From the NCBI GenBank assembly GCA_030619925.1, contig JAUXAL010000014.1, forward strand, positions 1 to 57,479: DNA of 57,479 nt, read 5' to 3'. Origin of the DNA: Phycisphaerae bacterium (GTDB lineage Bacteria; Planctomycetota; Phycisphaerae; Sedimentisphaerales; Anaerobacaceae). Below, piece after piece: positions 6,734 to 57,479 of this stretch. Position 1 is the first letter of the stretch; the number at the start of each line of letters is the position of its first letter. The position numbers and the translations under genes were made by a program. The notes below the pieces were generated by a model that was not told where the DNA came from, made no database searches, and saw only the letters and a list, made by a program, of their open reading frames with translations.

Positions 6734-6764
6734 CTACATGGTTGTGGTCGTTCCCGTTGGGTAG

Positions 6765-6782
6765 GGTGCGATGAATCGCACC
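6765..6782. repeat. REP palindrome 2 (TGAAT loop type)
   Basis: GGTGCGATGAATCGCACC is preceded by GTAG. It forms a BIME-like pair with copy 1. A short spacer (CTACATGG and GTCGTTCCCGTTRG) recurs between copies 1, 2 and 3. Confidence 0.9.
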
Positions 6783-6810
6783 TACATGGCTAGTCGTTCC
6801 CGTTAGGTAG

Positions 6811-6828
6811 GGTGCGATGAATCGCACC
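6811..6828. repeat. REP palindrome 3 (TGAAT loop type)
   Basis: Same sequence as copy 2, ending 20 bases upstream of the RAYT start codon. Confidence 0.9.
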
Positions 6829-6848
6829 AACCATGGGAGAATAGATAC

Positions 6849-7421
6849 ATGCCGGACTATAAACGATGGTTTTGTGTTGGCGGGACATATTTCTTTACCG
6901 TCGTGACATACAACCGGCGAAAGATATTTTGTGATGCTCATGCCCGTACATCTTTGCATCGGGCCATGGCTGAAGTCCAGGCCTTGCGTCCTTTTGAAAT
7001 GCTGGGTGTTGCGCTTTTGCCCGACCACTGTCACTGTATATGGAAGATGGCGTCCGATGACGACAATTTCTCTGTGAGATGGGGAATGATAAAAAGGAGA
7101 TTCACGAAATTATGGCTTACCAGTGGCGGCCAAGATGTGCCGGTATCGGCATCGAGAACCCAAAGAGGGGAACGCGGCATTTGGCAGAGGCGGTTCTGGG
7201 AACACCTGATTCGCGATCAGCAGGATTTTGCCCGACATATGGATTATATCCATTACAACCCGGTAAAACACGGATATGTGACATGTCCTCATCAATGTAA
7301 GCATTCGAGTTTTCATCGTTGGGTCAAAGAGGGAGTTTACAAGTTTGATTGGCTTTGCCAATGCCAGGAAAATCGTAAACCTCCTAATTTTGAGGTTATT
7401 TCTCATACTGTAGGAGAATGA
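6849..7421 (+). CDS. REP-associated tyrosine transposase (RAYT, Y1_Tnp family)
   Basis: The 190-residue protein belongs to the HUH single-strand transposase-like family (PF01797) that is linked to spreading REP palindromes. The HUH motif is LPDHCHCIW with His60 and His62. The C-terminal YIHYNPVKHG holds the candidate catalytic tyrosines (133 and 136). IWQRRFWEHLI is the usual preceding motif. Its length is normal and the frame is intact, so the gene is probably functional. Palindromes GGTGCGA...TCGCACC flank it on both sides, three upstream and two just downstream, as expected for a RAYT and its substrates. Confidence 0.93.
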   Translation: MPDYKRWFCVGGTYFFTVVTYNRRKIFCDAHARTSLHRAMAEVQALRPFEMLGVALLPDHCHCIWKMASDDDNFSVRWGMIKRRFTKLWLTSGGQDVPVSASRTQRGERGIWQRRFWEHLIRDQQDFARHMDYIHYNPVKHGYVTCPHQCKHSSFHRWVKEGVYKFDWLCQCQENRKPPNFEVISHTVGE

Positions 7422-7441
7422 AGCGATATAATTAAAGGAAG

Positions 7442-7459
7442 GGTGCGATGAATCGCACC
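7442..7459. repeat. REP palindrome 4 (TGAAT loop type)
   Basis: Exact copy of REP 2, starting 20 bases after the RAYT stop codon. Confidence 0.9.
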
Positions 7460-7478
7460 AATTCCGTGAGAATAGTAG

Positions 7479-7496
7479 GGTGCGAAATATCGCACC
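7479..7496. repeat. REP palindrome 5 with fully symmetric flanks
   Basis: The AAATAT-loop palindrome has GTAG before and CTAC after it, so the inverted repeat extends over 26 bases (7475-7500). It abuts a truncated coding fragment. Confidence 0.9.
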
Positions 7497-7503
7497 CTAC
7501 ATA

Positions 7504-7608
7504 GTGGCTTCAGGCACCGCATCTGCCCATTGCGATACCTTAGACGGCCCCGTGGTGACGGAAGCCGTGGCCGCTCTGAAAAAAGGGGATATAGGTTATG
7601 GCCATTGA
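7504..7608 (+). pseudogene. Fragment of a DUF6448-like exported protein
   Basis: This frame reads VASGTASAHCDTLDGPVVTE and then AVAALKKGDIGYGH before a TGA. AHCDTLDGPVV followed by an ALKKGD-like stretch is the N-terminus of small exported DUF6448 proteins as I remember that family. The signal peptide is missing to the left, exactly where REP 5 begins, and most of the protein is missing to the right. The tail overlaps the cupin start. I infer a remnant left by REP insertion and deletion. The family assignment is from memory. Confidence 0.5.
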
Positions 7609-7942
7609 GAAAGAAAAAGGGTCCAAGATCCAGGTGAGTCAAGTTCTTGATTTGATAAAGCTTGTTGAATACGGCCAAGGTGCTATCGTCAGTCGCACCC
7701 TGGTTGAAAACGAAGCAGGCACTGTGACATTGTTCGCTTTTGATGCCGACCAGGGCCTCAACGAACATACTGCGCCGTTTGATGCCCTGGTACAGGTCGT
7801 AAACGGTGAGGGCGAGTTCATCATTGGTGGAAAATCGCACCAGGTGGGCGAAGGTCAACTCATTCTGATGCCCGCTAATGTTCCTCATGCGGTACGGGCC
7901 AACAGGCGTTTCAAGATGATGCTAACGATGCTCCGCAAATAA
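7598..7942 (+). CDS. Small single-domain cupin protein
   Basis: A 114-residue cytoplasmic cupin (Cupin_2 type). Motif 1 is visible around residues 48-68 (NEHTAPFDALVQVVNGEGEF), although the classical second His is replaced. Motif 2 is near residues 88-92 (PANVPHAV). Proteins of this size bind a metal and may act as small isomerases, dioxygenases or sensors; the sequence does not say which. An AAGGGG site lies upstream. It lies between REP palindromes 5 and 6 and starts within the DUF6448-like remnant, so it may be the surviving part of an older operon. Confidence 0.85.
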   Translation: MAIEKEKGSKIQVSQVLDLIKLVEYGQGAIVSRTLVENEAGTVTLFAFDADQGLNEHTAPFDALVQVVNGEGEFIIGGKSHQVGEGQLILMPANVPHAVRANRRFKMMLTMLRK

Positions 7943-7966
7943 GGCAAACGGTAAAAGGTCAGGTAG

Positions 7967-7984
7967 GGTGCGATGAATCGCACC
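7967..7984. repeat. REP palindrome 6 (TGAAT loop type)
   Basis: Exact copy of REP 2 with GTAG before it, lying between the cupin and DinB-like genes. Confidence 0.9.
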
Positions 7985-8108
7985 AATTATGGGTGCTGAA
8001 TCCACCCTCGCCAAGGCTTCGGCGGACAAGTACTTTGGGTTCGACACTTCGACAAGACTTATCTGTGCTCACAGCAAGAAGGTGAAGTGGAACCTGAAAG
8101 GAGCAATT

Positions 8109-19219: not shown

Positions 19220-19329
19220 GTCAGGAGGTTACCCAAATTGCCATCGTTTAACAAAACGCCGGAAAACAGTGCTTTTTTGTCATATCAGGCCGAAATAGCG
19301 GAAAAACTACGAAGTTTTGACTACTTTTT

Positions 19330-19620
19330 ATGCAAAACAAAGCCAATTTCCGAAAAAGTCAAATGAACGTAAATCTATATAATACAACGGATTATGAAAA
19401 TAAATCCAATTGGACACTTGGTGAAAACAAACCCAATTCAAAGCCAATCAAACCCAATTTCCGAAAAGCCCAAATGAATGTAAACTCACTTATAACAAAG
19501 GATTACAGAAAAAACGACGCTTTCGCAGTCCAAAAAAACAAACCCAATTCAAACCCAATTCAAAGCCAATCAAAGCCAATCTCAAAAACAGAAGTCAGAA
19601 GACAGAAGACAGAGTACGGC
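19330..19620 (+). repeat. Repeat block with open frame (NKANF/NKPNSNPI type)
   Basis: Two related units of about 58 bases start at 19343 and 19454, each beginning CCAATTTCCGAAAA, then several AACCCAATTC and AAGCCAATC motifs. One frame reads MQNKANFRKSQMNVN and later NKPNSKPIKPNF, but the composition follows the DNA repeat, and no ribosome site precedes it. I treat it as a dispersed repeat rather than a gene. Confidence 0.55.
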
Positions 19621-19654: not shown

Positions 19655-20407
19655 CTAACGTGGCCAATCTCTGCCCTTGATGCCGTGAATTGTCAGGTTC
19701 GCATCCGGAAGGCCGTCGCGGGCGGGGCGAATCTGCTTAGCGTCAAGCAAACGGACATGGCCGTCAACGAAGAGGTAGTTGCGGCTGCCTTGCCAGCACC
19801 ACCATCCTTTATCATCATCGATGGGTGGATGATTGCTGAGCCATTCGCCGATGAGAATCTTGCCAGACGGCCTGGCTACATTCACGCTTCGCTGCGGCAC
19901 AGAGGGCTGAGGATTTGCGTACGTGTCGGCCGGGCTGTTCATATCGTCAATCTGCTCGGGGCTGTGGTAGAATGCCATCGAGTAGGCGTAACTGGTGGAC
20001 TCGTATTTGTCCTTGGCGATGTGGTCTTGTGGACAAAACAGAGCCGAAGGATTATTCGCATCGATATTGCCGCCCAGATAAGGCTCGACAAAGCCCCGCC
20101 AGCCCCGTCCCATCCACAGCCAGTAGGCCGGGGCCGTTGAGACAGGGTCCTGGGCACAGGGATACGTGTTCTCGTTGCCGTTGAGGTACAGGTTCATAGC
20201 CAGACTGATTTGTTTGAGGTTGGACGCGCACGCCAGGCGCATCGCTATAGACCTGGCTTTTCTAAGCGATGGCATAAGTATGGAGAGCAAAAGCGCGATG
20301 ATCCCTATGACAACAAGTAGCTCGACAAGGGTAAAACCACCGCGAAGCCTCTTGGCCGCTGAGCCGGGGCAACGCCGGCCTGTATCGGATGTTTTGGGTC
20401 TAATCAT
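19655..20407 (-). CDS. Prepilin-like secreted protein (N-terminal methylation motif, H-X9-DG type)
   Basis: A 250-residue pseudopilin-like protein. It has a basic leader, the cleavage motif RGGFTLVELLVVIGIIALLLSI (cut after the second Gly, near residue 23) and the long hydrophobic helix of type IV pilins and type II pseudopilins. The C-terminal NYLFVDGHVRLLDA contains the DGH box typical of the H-X9-DG family, which is greatly expanded in planctomycetes. It starts 14 bases after the glmS stop on the same strand, so it is probably co-transcribed. ATG 20407 is the first start after glmS; no strong ribosome site is seen, so translational coupling is possible. Function of the family is unknown. 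Confidence 0.85.
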   Translation of the reverse strand: MIRPKTSDTGRRCPGSAAKRLRGGFTLVELLVVIGIIALLLSILMPSLRKARSIAMRLACASNLKQISLAMNLYLNGNENTYPCAQDPVSTAPAYWLWMGRGWRGFVEPYLGGNIDANNPSALFCPQDHIAKDKYESTSYAYSMAFYHSPEQIDDMNSPADTYANPQPSVPQRSVNVARPSGKILIGEWLSNHPPIDDDKGWWCWQGSRNYLFVDGHVRLLDAKQIRPARDGLPDANLTIHGIKGRDWPR

Positions 20408-20420
20408 CAAGCGAAACAGT

Positions 20421-22319
20421 TTACTCGACTGTAACGCTTTTTGCAAGGTTTCGAGGTTTATCAACATCGTGCCCGCGCAGCACAGCAGCGTGATAGGCCA
20501 GCAGTTGCAGCGGCACAACGGTCAGCATCGGCTGCAAAAGCTCCGGAGCATCGGGAATGGTGATCAAATGGTCGGTCCGCCCAAGGGCCGATTTGATATG
20601 CTTATCGCCTTCGGTTGCGACGACGATGATTTTGCCGCCGCGCGCCCTGACTTCGGCAATATTGCCCAGAATCTTGTCATATTGCGGCCCGGATGTGGCA
20701 ATGAAAACCACAGGCATACCGTCAACAATCAAAGCGATCGGCCCGTGCTTCATCTCCGCGGCAGGCAGACCCTCAGCGTGAATATAGCTTATTTCCTTTA
20801 GTTTCAAGGCCCCTTCAAGAGCGACCGGATAATTAAAGCCTCTGCCCAAAAAAAGCCAATTGTCCCGGTCGATATTCGCCGACGCAATTTCTTTAATATG
20901 GTCGGATTGCTGGAGTATTCGGCTTATCTTATCCGGTATCTGCGAAAACTCATTGATGTGCTTGTCCGCCTCGTTGCTGCCGATATGTCTTCTTCTGCCC
21001 AATTCAATCGCCAGCATTGTCAGGACCGCCACCTGTGCAGTGAATGCCTTTGTGCTGGCGACGCCGATTTCGGGGCCGACGTGCAAATATATCCCTGCGT
21101 CGGTGGCCCTGGCGACCGAAGAGCCGACCACATTAACGATACCGAGCACCGTAGCTCCACGTTCTTTGGCCTGCTCTACCGCTGCAAGGGTATCGGCCGT
21201 TTCCCCCGACTGGCTTATTGATACCACGACGGTGCCGTCCTCGATAATTGGGTTGCGATACCGAAATTCACTGGCGTATTCCGTTTCTGTCGGGATACGC
21301 GCCAGCAGCTCAAACAAAAATTCTCCCACCAAACTGGCATGGAATGCCGTTCCGCAGGCGGTCAGGATGAGCCGTTTGGTACGCGTCAATTCACGCAGAT
21401 ACGATGCAATACCGCCGAGTTTAATCCTGTTGTTCCGGCGGTCGATTCGTCCGCCCATACAAGTGCTTAAAGCCTTGGGCTGCTCAAAAATTTCTTTGAG
21501 CATGTGGTGCTGAAAGCCGCCTAATTCGATTTGTTCTAATGAAAACTCAATTTGCTTGAGGTCTTTGGCCACAGTGACATTGTCAATCGTTTTGGTACCA
21601 AACCCGTCCGCCCTGACGGTAACCATCTCGTTGTCGGCGAGGTATATTGCCTGGGTTGTATGCTCTACAATTGCAGCCGCATCCGAGGCTAAGATATATT
21701 CGTTATCGCCGACGCCTAAAATCAGGGGACTTCCCTTTTTGGCACCGATGAGGGCATCGGGAAAATCGCAGCAGACAATCGCCAGGCCGAAAGTGCCGTG
21801 TATCTTCTGAAGAGCCCGCTGAACAGCCCATTCAAATTTGTTCTCCGTAAGGAGTCCATAGGACTGCCCGTAGGATTTCTTTGCCTCCCGGTCCTGATTG
21901 CCTTCGGCATAAAAATAGCCAATTAAGTTTGCTATCACTTCGGTATCGGTTTCGCTCGCAAATTCGACTCCTTCGTTTTGGAGCCACGTTTTCAATGTGG
22001 TGTAGTTTTCGATAATGCCGTTATGAACAACAGCGATTTTGCCGGTATAGTCCAGATGCGGATGTGCATTAACGGTGTTTGGCTCGCCGTGTGTGGCCCA
22101 GCGGGTATGGCCGATGCCGAGGCTCTCGCCGCCGGCAGGCTCATCTAAAATCCCTTCCAGAGCGCTAATTCTGCCGCTGGTTTTTTTGATCCTTATCGCG
22201 CCGCCGCCCAATAGCGCCACACCAGCCGAATCGTAACCACGATACTCCAGCCGCTTTAGCCCTTCTATAAGAATTGGCTGTGCGCTCTTTTTACCAAGAT
22301 AAGCTACTATGCCGCACAT
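20421..22319 (-). CDS. glmS: Glutamine--fructose-6-phosphate aminotransferase, with an in-frame repeat insertion
   Basis: Makes glucosamine-6-phosphate from fructose-6-phosphate and glutamine, feeding peptidoglycan and amino-sugar synthesis. The N-terminal glutaminase domain has the nucleophile Cys2 in MCGIVAYLG, then two SIS sugar-isomerase domains (SISQSGETADT near residue 360), ending LAKSVTVE. At 632 residues it is about 20 longer than usual. The extra residues fall near 143-161 (KKSYGQSYGLLTENK) in the glutaminase domain and are encoded partly by a 31-bp sequence that also occurs inside hisH. The frame is intact, so the enzyme presumably tolerates the insert. Confidence 0.96.
   Translation of the reverse strand: MCGIVAYLGKKSAQPILIEGLKRLEYRGYDSAGVALLGGGAIRIKKTSGRISALEGILDEPAGGESLGIGHTRWATHGEPNTVNAHPHLDYTGKIAVVHNGIIENYTTLKTWLQNEGVEFASETDTEVIANLIGYFYAEGNQDREAKKSYGQSYGLLTENKFEWAVQRALQKIHGTFGLAIVCCDFPDALIGAKKGSPLILGVGDNEYILASDAAAIVEHTTQAIYLADNEMVTVRADGFGTKTIDNVTVAKDLKQIEFSLEQIELGGFQHHMLKEIFEQPKALSTCMGGRIDRRNNRIKLGGIASYLRELTRTKRLILTACGTAFHASLVGEFLFELLARIPTETEYASEFRYRNPIIEDGTVVVSISQSGETADTLAAVEQAKERGATVLGIVNVVGSSVARATDAGIYLHVGPEIGVASTKAFTAQVAVLTMLAIELGRRRHIGSNEADKHINEFSQIPDKISRILQQSDHIKEIASANIDRDNWLFLGRGFNYPVALEGALKLKEISYIHAEGLPAAEMKHGPIALIVDGMPVVFIATSGPQYDKILGNIAEVRARGGKIIVVATEGDKHIKSALGRTDHLITIPDAPELLQPMLTVVPLQLLAYHAAVLRGHDVDKPRNLAKSVTVE
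21838..21868 (-). repeat. Coding palindromic element, copy in glmS
   Basis: Read on the minus strand this 31-bp segment is identical to 22912-22942 in hisH. It contains two small hairpins: AGTCC-TAT-GGACT and CTCC-TTAC-GGAG. In glmS it is translated as part of GQSYGLLTENK. Confidence 0.9.
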
Positions 22320-22587
22320 TCATATCTTCCTTAATCACAGCAAACCCACGTGAATAAATCGGCAAAAAACACCGCTGTCATAATATAAAACGCAATGTAA
22401 AAAAAACGCCTTTTAGCAAATTTCGCTCAAGGTTCATTGATTATCGGCGGATTTGCTCACTGGGCAAATCAATCCTACTTAATCGCCCTATCAAGTATTC
22501 TTATTTGACGTTTCAGCTTGAATAGTTAATGTATAGTCCGGCGAATGGTAAATCGAGCGACGAGTCACAAGCCACGGGTCACGAATT

Positions 22588-23226
22588 ATGATAGTTGTTA
22601 TCGACTACGACGTTGGTAATGTCAAAAGCGTATGCAACGCATTTCGGCATATTGGCTGCGAGGTGGAGCTTAGCTGCGAGCCCGGGTCCATCGAAGCCGC
22701 CGCCGGCATCGTTTTGCCCGGCGTTGCAGCCTTCGGCTATGCTGTCAGCGCCTTAGGCCCCCTTGCTGAGCTGATAAAAGAGAGCGCTTTAAGCGGCAAA
22801 CCACTTCTGGGTATTTGTGTCGGCTACCAGATGCTTTTCGACCAAAGCAGCGAATACGGCCGACACAGCGGACTCGGATTAATCTACGGCAGTGTTGTCC
22901 CTATCCCGTCCGGCAGTCCTATGGACTCCTTACGGAGAACAATCCCGCACATGGGCTGGAATCTGGTAAAGCTGCCCGAAAATATGGATTTGTTTGCCGG
23001 CCTTGGAGGTGAAAAACATTTCTATTTCGCACACTCTTTCTATGCCGATGTCACCGACCCGCGGGCCAGGACCGCATTTACCGACTATGGCTTTGATTTG
23101 CCTGCATCGGTGCAGAAGGAAAACGTATACGGCACGCAATTTCACCCTGAAAAAAGCGGCAAGGCCGGCTTGAAACTCTTGCAGAATTTCTATGACATTT
23201 GTAAAAAAATAAACTCTAAATCCTAA
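22588..23226 (+). CDS. hisH: Imidazole glycerol phosphate synthase glutaminase subunit, with an in-frame repeat insertion
   Basis: Class I glutamine amidotransferase that supplies ammonia to HisF in histidine synthesis. The nucleophile Cys lies in LGICVGYQMLF near residue 76, and the His-Glu pair in QFHPEKSG near residue 188. At 212 residues it is about 10 longer than usual. The additional stretch SGSPMDSLRRT (near residues 107-117), just before the conserved PHMGWN, is encoded by the 31-bp element shared with glmS, read in a different frame. HisF follows 175 bases downstream on the same strand, separated by repeats. No clear ribosome site is visible before the ATG. Confidence 0.95.
   Translation: MIVVIDYDVGNVKSVCNAFRHIGCEVELSCEPGSIEAAAGIVLPGVAAFGYAVSALGPLAELIKESALSGKPLLGICVGYQMLFDQSSEYGRHSGLGLIYGSVVPIPSGSPMDSLRRTIPHMGWNLVKLPENMDLFAGLGGEKHFYFAHSFYADVTDPRARTAFTDYGFDLPASVQKENVYGTQFHPEKSGKAGLKLLQNFYDICKKINSKS
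22912..22942 (+). repeat. Coding palindromic element, copy in hisH
   Basis: Identical over 31 bases to the glmS copy, about 1.1 kb away and on the opposite strand, but in the same orientation relative to the gene it interrupts. Translated as GSPMDSLRRT. Confidence 0.9.
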
Positions 23227-23288
23227 ACTCTAAATCCTAAACAACATCTAATGACCAAAATTCAAATGACCAAAACGCCGCCCCTGTC

Positions 23289-23308
23289 ATTCCCGCTTCC
23301 GCAGGAAT
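23289..23308. repeat. dRS3-like palindrome, copy 3
   Basis: ATTCCCGCTTCCGCAGGAAT, with one mismatch in the stem and flanking GTC/GAC that extend the pairing; located between hisH and hisF. Confidence 0.75.
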
Positions 23309-46022: not shown

Positions 46023-46034
46023 TGTTCAGTATTG

Positions 46035-46255
46035 ACCCCCCAATTTATGGGGGGTCGTTTAGCCGTCGCCGGAACGGCGACGCAATATATTCAAAAATAT
46101 TTAGCCCCCCAATTTATTGGGGGGTCGTTTAGCCCCCAAATTTATTTGGGGGTTTTACCCGAATTTATTCGAGGGTCGTTTAGCCCTCAAATTTATTCGA
46201 GGGTCGTTTAGCCGTCGCCGGTAAGCCTGCCATGAGCTTGCCGAAGGGGCGACGG
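46035..46255. repeat. Hairpin ladder 1 (before sulfatase)
   Basis: A series of inverted repeats: CCCCCC-AATTTAT-GGGGGG (46036-46054), GTCGCCG-GAA-CGGCGAC (46065-46081), then four AATTTATT-loop hairpins spaced 25-28 bases by TCGTTTAG. It ends in a larger palindrome GTCGCC...GGGCGAC (46214-46253). From 46096 on, the same ladder recurs at 47794-48003. Confidence 0.85.
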
Positions 46256-46309
46256 TGTTCAGGAAAACACAAATCAATAGCGCAAGTATTTGTGGGCAAG
46301 AAGGTCATT

Positions 46310-47779
46310 ATGAAAAAGAATCTAACGACACCGGAGTTTTCTAACGGGGTAAACCGTCGCGATTTTTTGGCGATTGCCGGTGCAGCTATGGCAGGGACTA
46401 TCCTGCCAGGCTGCACGGAAGTACTTTCCTCAGCAAAAAACGAAAGCTCCCTTAAGAAACCGAACTTCATCATCATCTTCTGTGACGATTTGGGCTACGG
46501 CGACCTCGGCTGCTTCGGTTCGAAGAAGCACCGCACGCCGAACATCGACCGCATGGCTGCTGAAGGCATGCGTTTTACCAGCTTTTATGTAACCAGCGGT
46601 GTATGCACGCCATCCCGGTCGAGTCTGATGACCGGCTGCTATCCCCGGCGCGTTAATATGCACGAAAGCGGCGCGCACGAATGGGTGCTCTTCCCGGTTG
46701 CCGAGAAGGGACTAAATCCGAATGAAATCACCATCGCTGAAGTGCTCAAAGAACAGGGCTACGCCACCGCCTGCGTTGGCAAGTGGCATTTAGGAGACCA
46801 ACCCGAGTTTCTGCCCACAAGGCAGGGCTTCGACTACTATTACGGCATCCCCTACAGCAACGATATGGGAGCCGAGCAACGGCCCAAAAATCCGCCGCTG
46901 CCGTTGCTGCGAAACGAAAAGGTCATCGAAGCGCCGGCTGACCAGAACACCCTGACAAAGCGCTACACAGAGCAGGTGATTAAGTTCGTCACCGCCAATA
47001 AGGACAGACCCTTCTTTGTCTACCTGCCGCACACGATGGTACACAATCCGGTGCATTCGAGCGAAAGGTTCCGCGGCAAGAGCGCCAACGGCGGCTACGG
47101 CGACGCAGCCGAAGAGATTGATTGGTCAACCGGCGAAATCCTGGCCACGCTCAAGAAGCTCGGCATTGACGGCCGCACGTTAGTTGTGTTCACCTCCGAC
47201 AACGGCGCAGCTAAACGCTGGGGCGGCAGCAATCTGCCGCTTTCAGGATTCAAAGGCAGTACAATGGAAGGCGGTATGCGTGAGCCGTGCGTAATGCGCT
47301 GGCCCGGCAGGATTCCGGCAGGCAAAACATGCGACGAATTGACCTGCACGATGGACCTGATGCCCACTTTCGCTCGACTGGCCGGCACAAAACCACCAAG
47401 CGACCGCATCATAGACGGCAAGGACATCCGGCCGCTTATGGCCGGCAAACAAAGCGCCAAATCGCCGCACGAGGCCTTCTACTATTATAGGGTAGACCAG
47501 TTGCAGGCCGTGCGCTCCGGCAAGTGGAAACTTCATCTGCCGTACAAGATTAAAAAACGCGACCAGGCAAAGGCTACATCTATGCCGTTAAAACTATACG
47601 ACCTCGAAGCTGACATCGGCGAAACAAATAATGTTGCCGACCAACATCCTGATGTAGTGCAACGTCTTCTTGCCTTAGCTGAAAAAGCCCGCGACGACCT
47701 TGGTGACCTCGATAGAAAGGGTAGAAACCAGCGTCCAGCCGGATGGGTCGTAACCCCAAAGCCATTAAGGAAAAAATAA
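46310..47779 (+). CDS. Sulfatase with Tat signal between ffh and rpsP
   Basis: 489 residues, arylsulfatase type. The modified Cys is Cys99 in VCTPSRSSLMTG. FCDDLGYGDLGC (near residue 58) and VVFTSDNGAAKRW are metal sites, and GKWHLGD follows in the middle. The N-terminus FSNGVNRRDFLAIAGAAMAG combines the coding-repeat arm and a Tat motif, and LPGC is lipobox-like. ATG 46310 has an AAGAAGGT site; an in-frame ATG at 46232 lies inside the repeat (reading MSLPKGRR) and is rejected. Hairpin ladders flank it on both sides as direct repeats. The location inside a translation operon is unusual. Substrate unknown. Confidence 0.93.
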   Translation: MKKNLTTPEFSNGVNRRDFLAIAGAAMAGTILPGCTEVLSSAKNESSLKKPNFIIIFCDDLGYGDLGCFGSKKHRTPNIDRMAAEGMRFTSFYVTSGVCTPSRSSLMTGCYPRRVNMHESGAHEWVLFPVAEKGLNPNEITIAEVLKEQGYATACVGKWHLGDQPEFLPTRQGFDYYYGIPYSNDMGAEQRPKNPPLPLLRNEKVIEAPADQNTLTKRYTEQVIKFVTANKDRPFFVYLPHTMVHNPVHSSERFRGKSANGGYGDAAEEIDWSTGEILATLKKLGIDGRTLVVFTSDNGAAKRWGGSNLPLSGFKGSTMEGGMREPCVMRWPGRIPAGKTCDELTCTMDLMPTFARLAGTKPPSDRIIDGKDIRPLMAGKQSAKSPHEAFYYYRVDQLQAVRSGKWKLHLPYKIKKRDQAKATSMPLKLYDLEADIGETNNVADQHPDVVQRLLALAEKARDDLGDLDRKGRNQRPAGWVVTPKPLRKK

Positions 47780-47793
47780 CGATCGATAATATA

Positions 47794-48004
47794 AATATTT
47801 AGCCCCCCAATTTATTGGGGGGTCGTTTAGCCCCCAAATTTATTTGGGGGTTTTACCCGAATTTATTCGAGGGTCGTTTAGCCCTCAAATTTATTTGGGG
47901 GGTTTACCCGAATTTATTGGAGGGTCGTTTAGCCCTCAAATTTATTTGATGGTTTATTTAGCCGTCGCCGGTAAGCCTGCCCTGAGCTTGCCGAAGGGGC
48001 GACG
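47794..48004. repeat. Hairpin ladder 2 (after sulfatase)
   Basis: The same order of hairpins as ladder 1 (CCCCCC/GGGGGG, CCCCCAAA/TTTGGGGG, CCCGAA/TTCGAGGG, then further CCCTCAAA units), with two extra units, and the same terminal palindrome with a single base difference. With ladder 1 it brackets the sulfatase as a direct repeat. Confidence 0.85.
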
Positions 48005-48409: not shown

Positions 48410-49762
48410 ATGGCAGTAAAGTTGAGAATGACCAGGATAGGCAGGCGGCATCGGCCGTTCTTTAGAATCAACGCGGTCGAATCGCGCACGCCGCGTGACG
48501 GCAAAATACTTGAAAAGCTGGGCCATTACGACCCGATTGAAAAAGACCCGGCCAAGCAGGTCGTGCTCAACCTCGAGCGCGTCCGGCACTGGCTCGATAA
48601 AGGAGCGATACCAAGCGATACGGTCTCGCAAATCCTGCTTCGCGCTGGGCTAAAGCACAAATATGCTGAAGAAAAAGCTGCCCGTCTGGCAAAGGCCAAG
48701 GCCATAGCCCGCGCTAAGGGCAAGCTGTTTACAAAAGCTCAAAGAATTGCCGCTCAAAAAGAGGCTGAGGCATCCAAGGAAAAGGCCGAGGTAGTCGAAG
48801 AAAAAGTCGAAGCTCCGGCAGTCGAAGAAAAGGTCGAAGCTCCGGTAGCTGAAGAAAAGGTCGAGCCCGAACCCGAGGCCAAAACCGAAGCTATGGAGGA
48901 AAAGGCCGAGGTAGCCGAAGAAAAAATCGAAGCTCCGGCAGCCGAAGAAAAGGTCGAAGCTCCGGCAGCTGAAGAAAAGGTCGAAGCTCCGGTAGCTGAA
49001 GAAAAAGTCGAAGCTCCGGTAGCCGAAGAAAAGGTCGAAGCTCCGGCAGCTGAAGAAAAAGTCGAAGCTCCGGTAGCCGAAGAAAAGGTCGAAGCTCCGG
49101 CAGCCGAAGAAAAGGTCGAAGCTCCGGCAGCTGAAGAAAAGGTCAAAGCTCCGGTAGCTGAAGAAAAAGTCGAAGCTCCGGCAGCTGAAGAAAAGGTCGA
49201 AGCTCCGGTAGCTGAAGAAAAAGTCGAAGCTCCGGTAGCCGAAGAAAAGGTCGAAGCTCCGGTAGCTGAAGAAAAAGTCGAAGCTCCGGTAGCCGAAGAA
49301 AAGGTCGAAGCTCCGGTAGTCGAAGAAAAAGTCGAAGCTCCGGTAGTTGAGGAAAAAGCCGAGCCCGAACCCGAGGCTAAAACCGAAGCTGTGGAGGAAA
49401 AGGTCGAGGTAGCTAAAGAAAAAATCGAAGCTCCGGCAGCTGAAGAAAAAATCGAAGCTCCGGCAGCTGAAGAAAAGGTCGAAGCTCCGGTAGCTGAAGA
49501 AAAAGTCGAAGCTCCGGTAGCCGAAGAAAAGGTCGAGCCCGAACCCGAAGCCAAGCCCGAGACCGAAGCAGTGGAAGAAAAAGTCGAGGCCAAAGCCGAA
49601 GCCGTAGAGGAAAAGGCCGAGGCCGAACCTGAAGCAAAAGCCAAGGTTGAAAAAAAGCCTAAGGCAAAGGCTGAAAAGAAACCCAAAGCAAAAGCTGAAA
49701 AGAAGCCTAAGACAAAGGCCAAAGCAGAGGTTGAGAAAAAACCGCAAATCGAGAAAGAATAG
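48410..49762 (+). CDS. rpsP: 30S ribosomal protein S16 with very long repetitive tail
   Basis: Residues 1 to about 85 are a normal S16 ([40 protein letters not shown]). S16 is usually 75-100 residues, but here the frame continues to 450. After a basic helix ([17 protein letters not shown]) comes a low-complexity tail: about 20 copies of AEEKVEAP-type nonamers, including a run of 15 units at 48938-49342. It ends in a lysine-rich part ([17 protein letters not shown]), like a histone H1 tail. The repeat is 27 bp at DNA level. GAAAGGA precedes the ATG. The tail would stick out of the ribosome; its role is unknown. Confidence 0.95.
48938..49342 (+). repeat. 27-bp tandem repeat within rpsP (15 units)
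   Basis: Fifteen exact-length units of the form G(C/T)AGC(C/T)GAAGAAAA(A/G)GTCGAAGCTCCG, each encoding (A/V)(A/V)EEKVEAP; only unit 8 has KVKAP. Exact periodicity makes it liable to expand and contract. Confidence 0.95.
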
Positions 49763-49775
49763 AGCCCATATTCAA

Positions 49776-49798
49776 CCCCCCAATTTATTGGGGGGTTA
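49776..49798 (+). terminator. Hairpin after rpsP
   Basis: CCCCCC-AATTTATT-GGGGGG followed by TTATA, 14 bases after the rpsP stop. Same sequence type as the ladder hairpins; the T-tract is short so it could be a weak terminator or only a repeat. Confidence 0.55.
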
Positions 49799-55794: not shown

Positions 55795-55806
55795 CAAATC
55801 GTTTAG

Positions 55807-55831
55807 CCCCCCATTTATTTGGGGGTTTTAT
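55807..55831 (+). terminator. Rho-independent terminator after rplS
   Basis: CCCCC...GGGGG stem with an ATTTATTT loop, followed by TTTTATTT. It lies immediately before the yraN start, so readthrough must occur or yraN has another promoter. Same family as the ladder hairpins. Confidence 0.65.
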
Positions 55832-57300: not shown

Positions 57301-57334
57301 TTCGGCAGAATCGGCCTGTTACTCTGCGAAGCAG

Positions 57335-57479
57335 CTCTTCTGTCTTCTGCCTTCTGCCTTCTGCCTTCTGCCTTCTGCCTTCTGCCTTCTGCCTTCTGCC
57401 TTCTGCCTTCTGCCTTCTGCCTTCTGCCTTCTGCCTTCTGCCTTCTGCCTTCTGCCTTCTGCCTTCTGCCTTCTGCCTT
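57335..57479. repeat. 7-bp tandem repeat (CTTCTGC), reaching the window end
   Basis: More than eighteen near-perfect CTTCTGC units run to the last base of the window; a partial cruciform core lies just before (57321). Related AGACAGAAG units occur at 19590-19612. The window may end because assembly broke at this microsatellite. Confidence 0.9.

Follow-up and report, generated by a model that had tools for sequence, protein, structure and literature searches.

Two divergent genes, glmS and hisH, on a 57,479-nt contig of a Phycisphaerae bacterium (JAUXAL010000014.1; this whole stretch is called the window below) share a short piece of DNA that is probably a non-autonomous, very small mobile repeat, 21 bp long and composed of two tandem mini-hairpins. 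Exact gains of 21 bp are observed at three gene sites, namely in hisH, in glmS and in a lysS-type gene of another genome (G014), and nearly all aligned relatives are empty at these sites. The two copies in the window, at bases 21838-21868 on the minus strand and 22912-22942 on the plus strand, form an inverted pair of 31 nt with 100% complementarity and 1,043 bp between them. A 20-base core is matched twice in the window, and not once in any of 100 shuffles. The 31 identical bases claimed in a preliminary description of this DNA are confirmed, as is its claim that the copies are read in two frames, GQSYGLLTENK in GlmS and GSPMDSLRRT in HisH. Because the frames differ, an invertible switch between the two copies was rejected by inference. 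The features concerned are listed below.

20421..22319, minus strand: glmS, 632 aa, host of the first copy; matches the solved GlmS 4amv at 1.5e-143
22588..23226, plus strand: hisH, 212 aa, host of the second copy; matches the solved HisH 4gud at 1.4e-33
21838..21868, minus strand: 31-bp identity on the glmS side, the element with flanks GGCAG (21864-21868) and AACAA (21838-21842)
21843..21863, minus strand: 21-bp element copy in glmS (TCCTATGGACTCCTTACGGAG), coding for SYGLLTE; exact in-frame gain relative to 28 of 29 aligned relatives
22912..22942, plus strand: 31-bp identity on the hisH side, the element with flanks GGCAG (22912-22916) and AACAA (22938-22942)
22917..22937, plus strand: 21-bp element copy in hisH (TCCTATGGACTCCTTACGGAG), in the other frame, within the codons of SPMDSLRR; 29 of 29 aligned relatives are without it
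22915..22927, plus strand: hairpin 1, AGTCC-TAT-GGACT, read from the sequence; its CT is common to hairpin 2, and its loop differs among copies
22926..22937, plus strand: hairpin 2, CTCC-TTAC-GGAG, read from the sequence; a sister subfamily has GCC/GGC in this stem

Insertion of Seven Codons into Conserved Genes

To define the inserted unit, we surveyed 61 genomes, 37 of the host family and 24 from other families of the order. Of these, 55 have HisH and 60 have GlmS-like matches, paralogues included; the 30 best loci per gene were aligned, own gene included, which leaves 29 relatives each. hisH of the window has exactly seven extra codons that are absent from all 29 relatives, one of which (L017) has two extra residues of its own at this site. 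glmS likewise has exactly seven extra codons, absent from 28 of 29 relatives. The lysS-type gene of G014 has exactly seven codons lacking in 29 of 29 aligned relatives (37 genomes searched); this synthetase of the D/K/N group is taken as lysS because the aspS- and asnS-sized paralogues match weakly. The alignments of homologues called for in the preliminary description thus show relatives without the insert at all three sites, and the outcome that it named as refuting, the same residues in homologues, is not seen apart from one glmS copy at the same site (in G012).

Judged from these alignments, the inserted unit is the 21 bp TCCTATGGACTCCTTACGGAG, which makes exactly seven codons in both glmS and hisH. 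The remaining 10 shared bases, GGCAG^AACAA, would be the sequence of the site, because CAG-AAC is already present at the insertion point in 9 of the 28 glmS relatives without the insert. The preliminary description was therefore right that both genes are longer in frame, by a unit of 21 bp and not of 31. The ends of the element are uncertain by one base, because a G flanks both sides. Duplication of a 2-bp AG target, of the kind seen in yeast GC clusters, was considered and rejected: glmS and hisH fit it with AG on both sides, but the lysS-type site (CG...AG) does not, so that only the one-base G ambiguity is safe.

Structure and Distribution of the Family

The family follows the pattern TCC-NNN-GGAC-TCC-NNNC-GGAG, in which two tandem mini-hairpins, (G)TCC-NNN-GGA(C) and (C)TCC-NNNC-GGA(G), overlap at the central C and have variable loops. 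Among 158 copies the first loop is TTG in 51, TAT in 37, TAG in 14, TAA in 13 and TCG in 11, and the second loop is mostly TTAC; stem conservation in this survey is by construction, because the search pattern fixes the stems. A sister subfamily of GCC type, GTCCNNNGGACGCCNNNNGGCG, has 20 copies in the window's genome and occurs in 11 of the 61 genomes, with 3 control matches in all. In its second stem TCC/GGA has become GCC/GGC, so that both sides are changed, at one pair of one stem only. When the fetched DNA was scanned generically for two-hairpin structures, those with a TTAC-like second loop were 142 TCC/TCC, 4 TCC/GCC and 1 CCC/TCC; without the loop condition AAA/GGT and AGA/GGT also appear, 3 each, and the reversed control gives 17 in all. 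The scanned DNA is enriched in TCC/TCC because of the way in which it was fetched. The structural case comes from the compensated stem of the sister subfamily and the variable loops, not from folding energy.

With the loops freed, the pattern TCCNNNGGACTCCNNNCGGAG matches in 26 of the 61 genomes, 23 of the 37 in the host family and 3 of the 24 from other families of the order, and its reversed control gives no match in any of the 61. The 37 host-family genomes hold 212 copies, and copies lie on either strand. The window's own genome (a 4.02-Mb draft of 141 contigs, 92.76% complete) has only the window pair when a 26-base core is searched with up to 3 mismatches. Once the loops are freed, it has 11 exact copies and 1 with one mismatch, which are 12 places including the window pair, and the loops of the other nine exact copies are unlike those of the pair. 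The preliminary description had named the lack of any other copy in the genome as a refuting result; these 12 places and the 20 sister-subfamily copies show that it did not occur.

Beyond the order, the freed-loop pattern is no commoner than expected by chance. Of 392 genomes sampled across the phylum, among which the window's genome is the sole host-family member listed, 7 others each carry a single match with unlike loops, and the control matches in 4; the 7 chance matches were removed from the copy set, which fell from 158 to 151. The exact 21-mer, searched in one genome for each of 84,980 species, occurs in 33 stretches under 22 accession prefixes. All are titled as planctomycetes or subgroups (planctomycete, Planctomycetes, Planctomycetota, Phycisphaerae, Phycisphaerales, Sedimentisphaerales) except one "uncultured bacterium", and some are evidently the same records as genomes surveyed here. 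Chance or an assembly artefact can be given almost no weight: the host genome is a draft in many contigs, but 31 identical bases are far beyond chance and the exact 21-mer recurs in these 33 stretches. Among viral contigs, the freed-loop pattern is present in two, of 32.7 and 38.9 kb (L340:7752-7772 and L341:9424-9444), which possibly are viruses of the host family; neither an exact 22-mer nor the GCC-type pattern was found in the viral contigs.

Copies in Coding Sequence

To find copies within genes, we used a codon score trained on 357 long open reading frames (ORFs) and retained ORFs of at least 120 codons with a coding signal on both sides of the copy. By this screen 26 of the 151 fetched copies, in 22 ORFs, are predicted to lie within open frames, which supplies the many further in-frame copies for which the preliminary description had proposed to look; most copies fall outside the screened ORFs. 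The screen by design excludes stop-containing frames and misses weakly scoring genes, and 3 of the 7 phylum chance matches also pass it, as expected of chance matches within genes. Five frames are used: SxGLLTE (7 copies), LRKESxG (7), LGTPYGE (5), SVRSPxD (4) and SPxDSLR (3). Across all 151 copies, three frames are free of stops in 24, four in 43, five in 71 and six in 13, and no copy has fewer than three; 84 copies are thus open in five or six frames, and the window's own copy in four.

A Pfam run on 19 of the 22 screened ORFs and one lower-scoring ORF left 4 of the 20 without a match. The hosts include a class II tRNA synthetase (D/K/N group), a dihydrolipoamide dehydrogenase type (LpdA type), MnmE, MutL, a sugar oxidoreductase, ABC transporters and a GH116-type enzyme. 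In MutL the element lies between two domains. The MnmE host (L161) had been a candidate HemA, which was rejected as Pfam and solved structures point to MnmE/TrmE. The LpdA-type gene of G014 (L216:694-2163) carries two copies, inverted and 105 bp apart: opposite its SLGLLTE copy the solved 2eq7 has a seven-residue gap and 6uzi a gap of three, and opposite the second copy both structures have gaps of 2+4. Against the oxidoreductase L194, 4fb5 has a seven-residue gap, somewhat upstream. For GlmS and HisH the gaps in the solved homologues agree with the insert in position, though not exactly in size: 4amv has a 19-residue gap, in a stretch that varies in length among GlmS relatives too, and 4gud one of six residues. 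A 625-codon ORF of G014 (L151:3228-5102), with only a sub-threshold TPR match in Pfam, contains four copies in four different frames, all open.

These results bear on the reading that the insert is kept by selection as a functional peptide, an RNA regulatory hairpin or a protein-binding site. The kept stems and the copies in housekeeping genes would fit such a role. However, the peptide changes with the frame, the host genes are unrelated, and both strands are used; aligned orthologues of other genera are without the insert, no single site is conserved across many genera, and Rfam has no match in window positions 20400-23300. We regard selection for a function as very improbable. The seven added residues would then represent no selected sequence, and a benefit to the host is not needed as an explanation.

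Target Site, Palindromes and Nested Copies

Among the 151 copies, flank information is confined to positions -4 to -1 and +1 to +3, which read GCAG^AAC, or more loosely GCAG^RRC. CAG^AAC flanks 17 of the 151 copies, against 0.04 expected. This consensus matters for a second reading of the window pair, in which the second copy is the product not of transposition but of local template switching, or gene conversion, between the two genes at a 10-bp microhomology (GGCAGAACAA) on opposite strands. The two sites agree in 10 flanking bases and form an inverted pair separated by 1 kb, and the LpdA-type gene of G014 also has an inverted pair, 105 bp apart. On the other side, the general consensus accounts for 7 of the 10 shared bases without microhomology, and local switching leaves a family in 23 of 37 genomes unexplained. 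A local origin of the second copy is a possibility that we would back with some reserve, as the smaller chance.

Palindrome arms of at least 8 bp surround the site in 6 of the 150 copies with enough flank, whereas 200 re-pairings gave a mean of 0.27 and a maximum of 2. The six cases are not all independent, because L209 and L210 share one repeated palindrome and L241 resembles a 7-bp case, L244. In G007 a larger repeat, TCGAGGGCG...CGCCCTCGA, has the element at its centre in three places (L209, L210 and L252, the last a 7-bp case).

Loops of the element itself are also entered, by other double hairpins. Copies of TCC type split at loop 2 number 26, in 9 of the 61 genomes, with 0 in the control. 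The inserts measure 24 bp in 13 cases, 23 bp in six, 32 bp in two, 21 bp in two, and 18, 40 and 42 bp in one each. Of the two 21-bp inserts, one is a further copy of this element in inverted orientation. For the most part the 24-bp cases represent variants of a single composite that has itself multiplied, and the 18-bp case is a tandem duplication. Three GCC-type copies, judged by eye, lie inside TCC-type loops (L260, L272 and L273).

Search for a Mobilizing Enzyme

The element could be imagined as a family of repetitive extragenic palindromes (REPs) whose movement depends on REP-associated tyrosine transposases (RAYT, PF01797). It is like REPs in being a small hairpin repeat that occurs in genes and spacers, and PF01797 is present in 53 of the 61 genomes. 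PMC3733652 also describes GTAG and CGTC REPs that can lie inside genes and reports REP families in Planctomycetes. Neither GTAG nor CGTC is a consensus of the copies, however: only 4 of the 151 have GTAG on their 5' side, and CG precedes TC (giving CGTC) in 10. Moreover, G014 has 27 copies and 0 matches to PF01797, 11 family genomes have PF01797 without the element, and in the other families of the order PF01797 occurs in 21 of 24 genomes and the element in 3. Because PF01797 does not track the element, RAYT was rejected as a simple account of its mobilization, and a REP/RAYT origin is unlikely. A reverse transcriptase was considered as the mover too; its counts show no significant correlation with element density.

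Several results weigh against a mobile repeat. No mobilizing enzyme was found among the Y1 transposases and reverse transcriptases examined: across 37 genomes, element density is not significantly correlated with counts of Y1 transposases (rho = 0.25, P = 0.14) or reverse transcriptases (rho = 0.20, P = 0.23). RVT_1 has no match in the window's genome, an incomplete draft, which weakens a simple retro-copy route; it was not found in 10 of the 23 element-bearing family genomes, the window's included, and these drafts are incomplete. No movement within a species was seen, the relatives compared being of different genera. The two small hairpins noted in the preliminary description can be read in the sequence, but their folding energies are weak (z = -1.3 and -0.9). 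Solved homologues are not all cleanly gapped by seven residues (three in 6uzi, six in 4gud, none clear in 1xzp for MnmE). Sharing of the core is not special to the window pair, as two more pairs in the same genome do so on different contigs. In nine genomes, 15 pairs lie at most 2.6 kb apart against 1.7 expected, 9 of them inverted; this clustering comes mostly from G014 (12 of the 15), its cut-off was set after seeing the data, and G035, which has the most copies, was left out (its places are not listed).

The glmS copy of G012 is a further difficulty. It is a 21-bp insert, TCCCATGGACTCCTTCCGGAG, at the same codon, with two base differences that both fall within hairpin loops, and hisH of G012 has no insert. 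In the glmS and hisH trees the window's genome (G000) is not grouped with G012, with low support. Local glmS gene conversion between the two was rejected, because the sequence around the insert shows no increased identity (0.747, whereas the value for G035 is 0.816). The shared site in two genomes that these trees keep apart needs parallel insertion, losses or a wrong tree; it may represent parallel insertion in a favoured site, or an old insertion followed by losses. If G012 and the window's genome inherited the glmS insert from a common ancestor, the hisH insertion is probably the later one in the window.

With these points weighed, a mobile repeat is still the reading we favor, and we infer that it spread by copy-and-paste through a single-stranded hairpin intermediate. 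The 21-bp unit would be copied as RNA or DNA by an enzyme acting in trans, and insertion would favor GCAG^AAC sites, loosely GCAG^RRC. Selection would then remove copies that stop translation or hit structured protein cores and spare those that fall in spacers, signal peptides, linkers or variable loops. The source of the hisH copy may be the glmS copy, at a distance of 1 kb, or the burst that produced both.

Comparison with Known Small Repeats

By analogy, the nearest known kind would be the small dispersed repeats (SDR) of Nostoc punctiforme, which Elhai et al. 2008 (Genome Res) are said to have described as dispersed units of 21-27 nt, reportedly with compensated stems and nested copies and confined to one clade. 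By this description the likeness is in the size class of the unit, in its dispersal (212 copies over the 37 family genomes), in the compensated stem 2 (TCC/GGA and GCC/GGC, in one pair of one stem only) and in the nesting of the split copies. According to PMC4390886, SDR5 is inserted precisely between bases 3 and 4 of HIP1, a short target comparable with the flank GCAG^AAC here. In contrast to the Nostoc repeats, our element belongs to another phylum, has this flank and makes exact in-frame gains in conserved genes.

The preliminary description had compared the insert with Rickettsia palindromic elements (RPE), which according to PMC10969869 are about 150 bp long and add a peptide in frame to unrelated genes. 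The comparison stands for the in-frame entry into unrelated genes with an added peptide, but fails for size, the gain being exactly 21 bp, and for the tag: RPE-4 and RPE-6 are CGTC-tagged repeats according to PMC3733652, and a CGTC consensus is not seen here.

The yeast GC clusters and the double-hairpin elements of Allomyces mitochondria are larger and lie mostly in spacers. Those of yeast (GC42), as described in PMC4478555, are short GC-rich hairpins with loops more variable than stems and AG as target nucleotides; our element resembles them in its short hairpins, variable loops and AG at the site, and differs in that they are mitochondrial. Comparison with SDR, RPE, GC clusters and tagged REPs places the element among very small mobile repeats. 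No paper naming it was found, in a search mostly outside subscription journals and confined to the best-ranked matches for broad queries.

Other Repeats in the Window

Several other repeats are present in the window. Another palindromic repeat, composed of 10 TTTAGCCCCCCAATTTATTGGGGGGT-like units that are at least 72% identical, occupies 46028-47953, 49768-49796 and 55798-55826, and a unit with a GGTGCGATGAATCGCACC palindrome has four copies at 6747-7987. Tandem CTTCTGC heptamers run from 57309 to 57476, up to the contig end, and the words CAGAAGACAGA and CAGAAGGCAGA, which may be compared with them, are among the commonest 11-mers of the sampled genome. The commonest, CAAACCCAATT, is to be compared with a CAAACCCAATTCAAAGCC-type repeat at 19317-19588. 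A 27-bp tandem repeat of about 19 units at 48763-49563 is perhaps coding, by its period and sequence.

Implications

The element bears on the question of how DNA units of ~20 bp without coding capacity move, as a family with a fixed length of 21 bp, a target motif, nested copies and clean empty sites lets insertion size, target and loop variation be read exactly. Being seven codons long and stop-free in most frames, a single-stranded 21-bp hairpin that enters GCAG^AAC sites and hairpin loops might, as a tentative and bolder proposal, act as a genome-wide generator of in-frame heptapeptides, independent of the Y1 transposases and reverse transcriptases tested. On that reading it would rank with the smallest known mobile elements and, to our knowledge, would be the first of its size class shown to enter conserved genes repeatedly and exactly. 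The family also shows, outside the Rickettsia case, how mobile DNA can add segments of seven residues to proteins.

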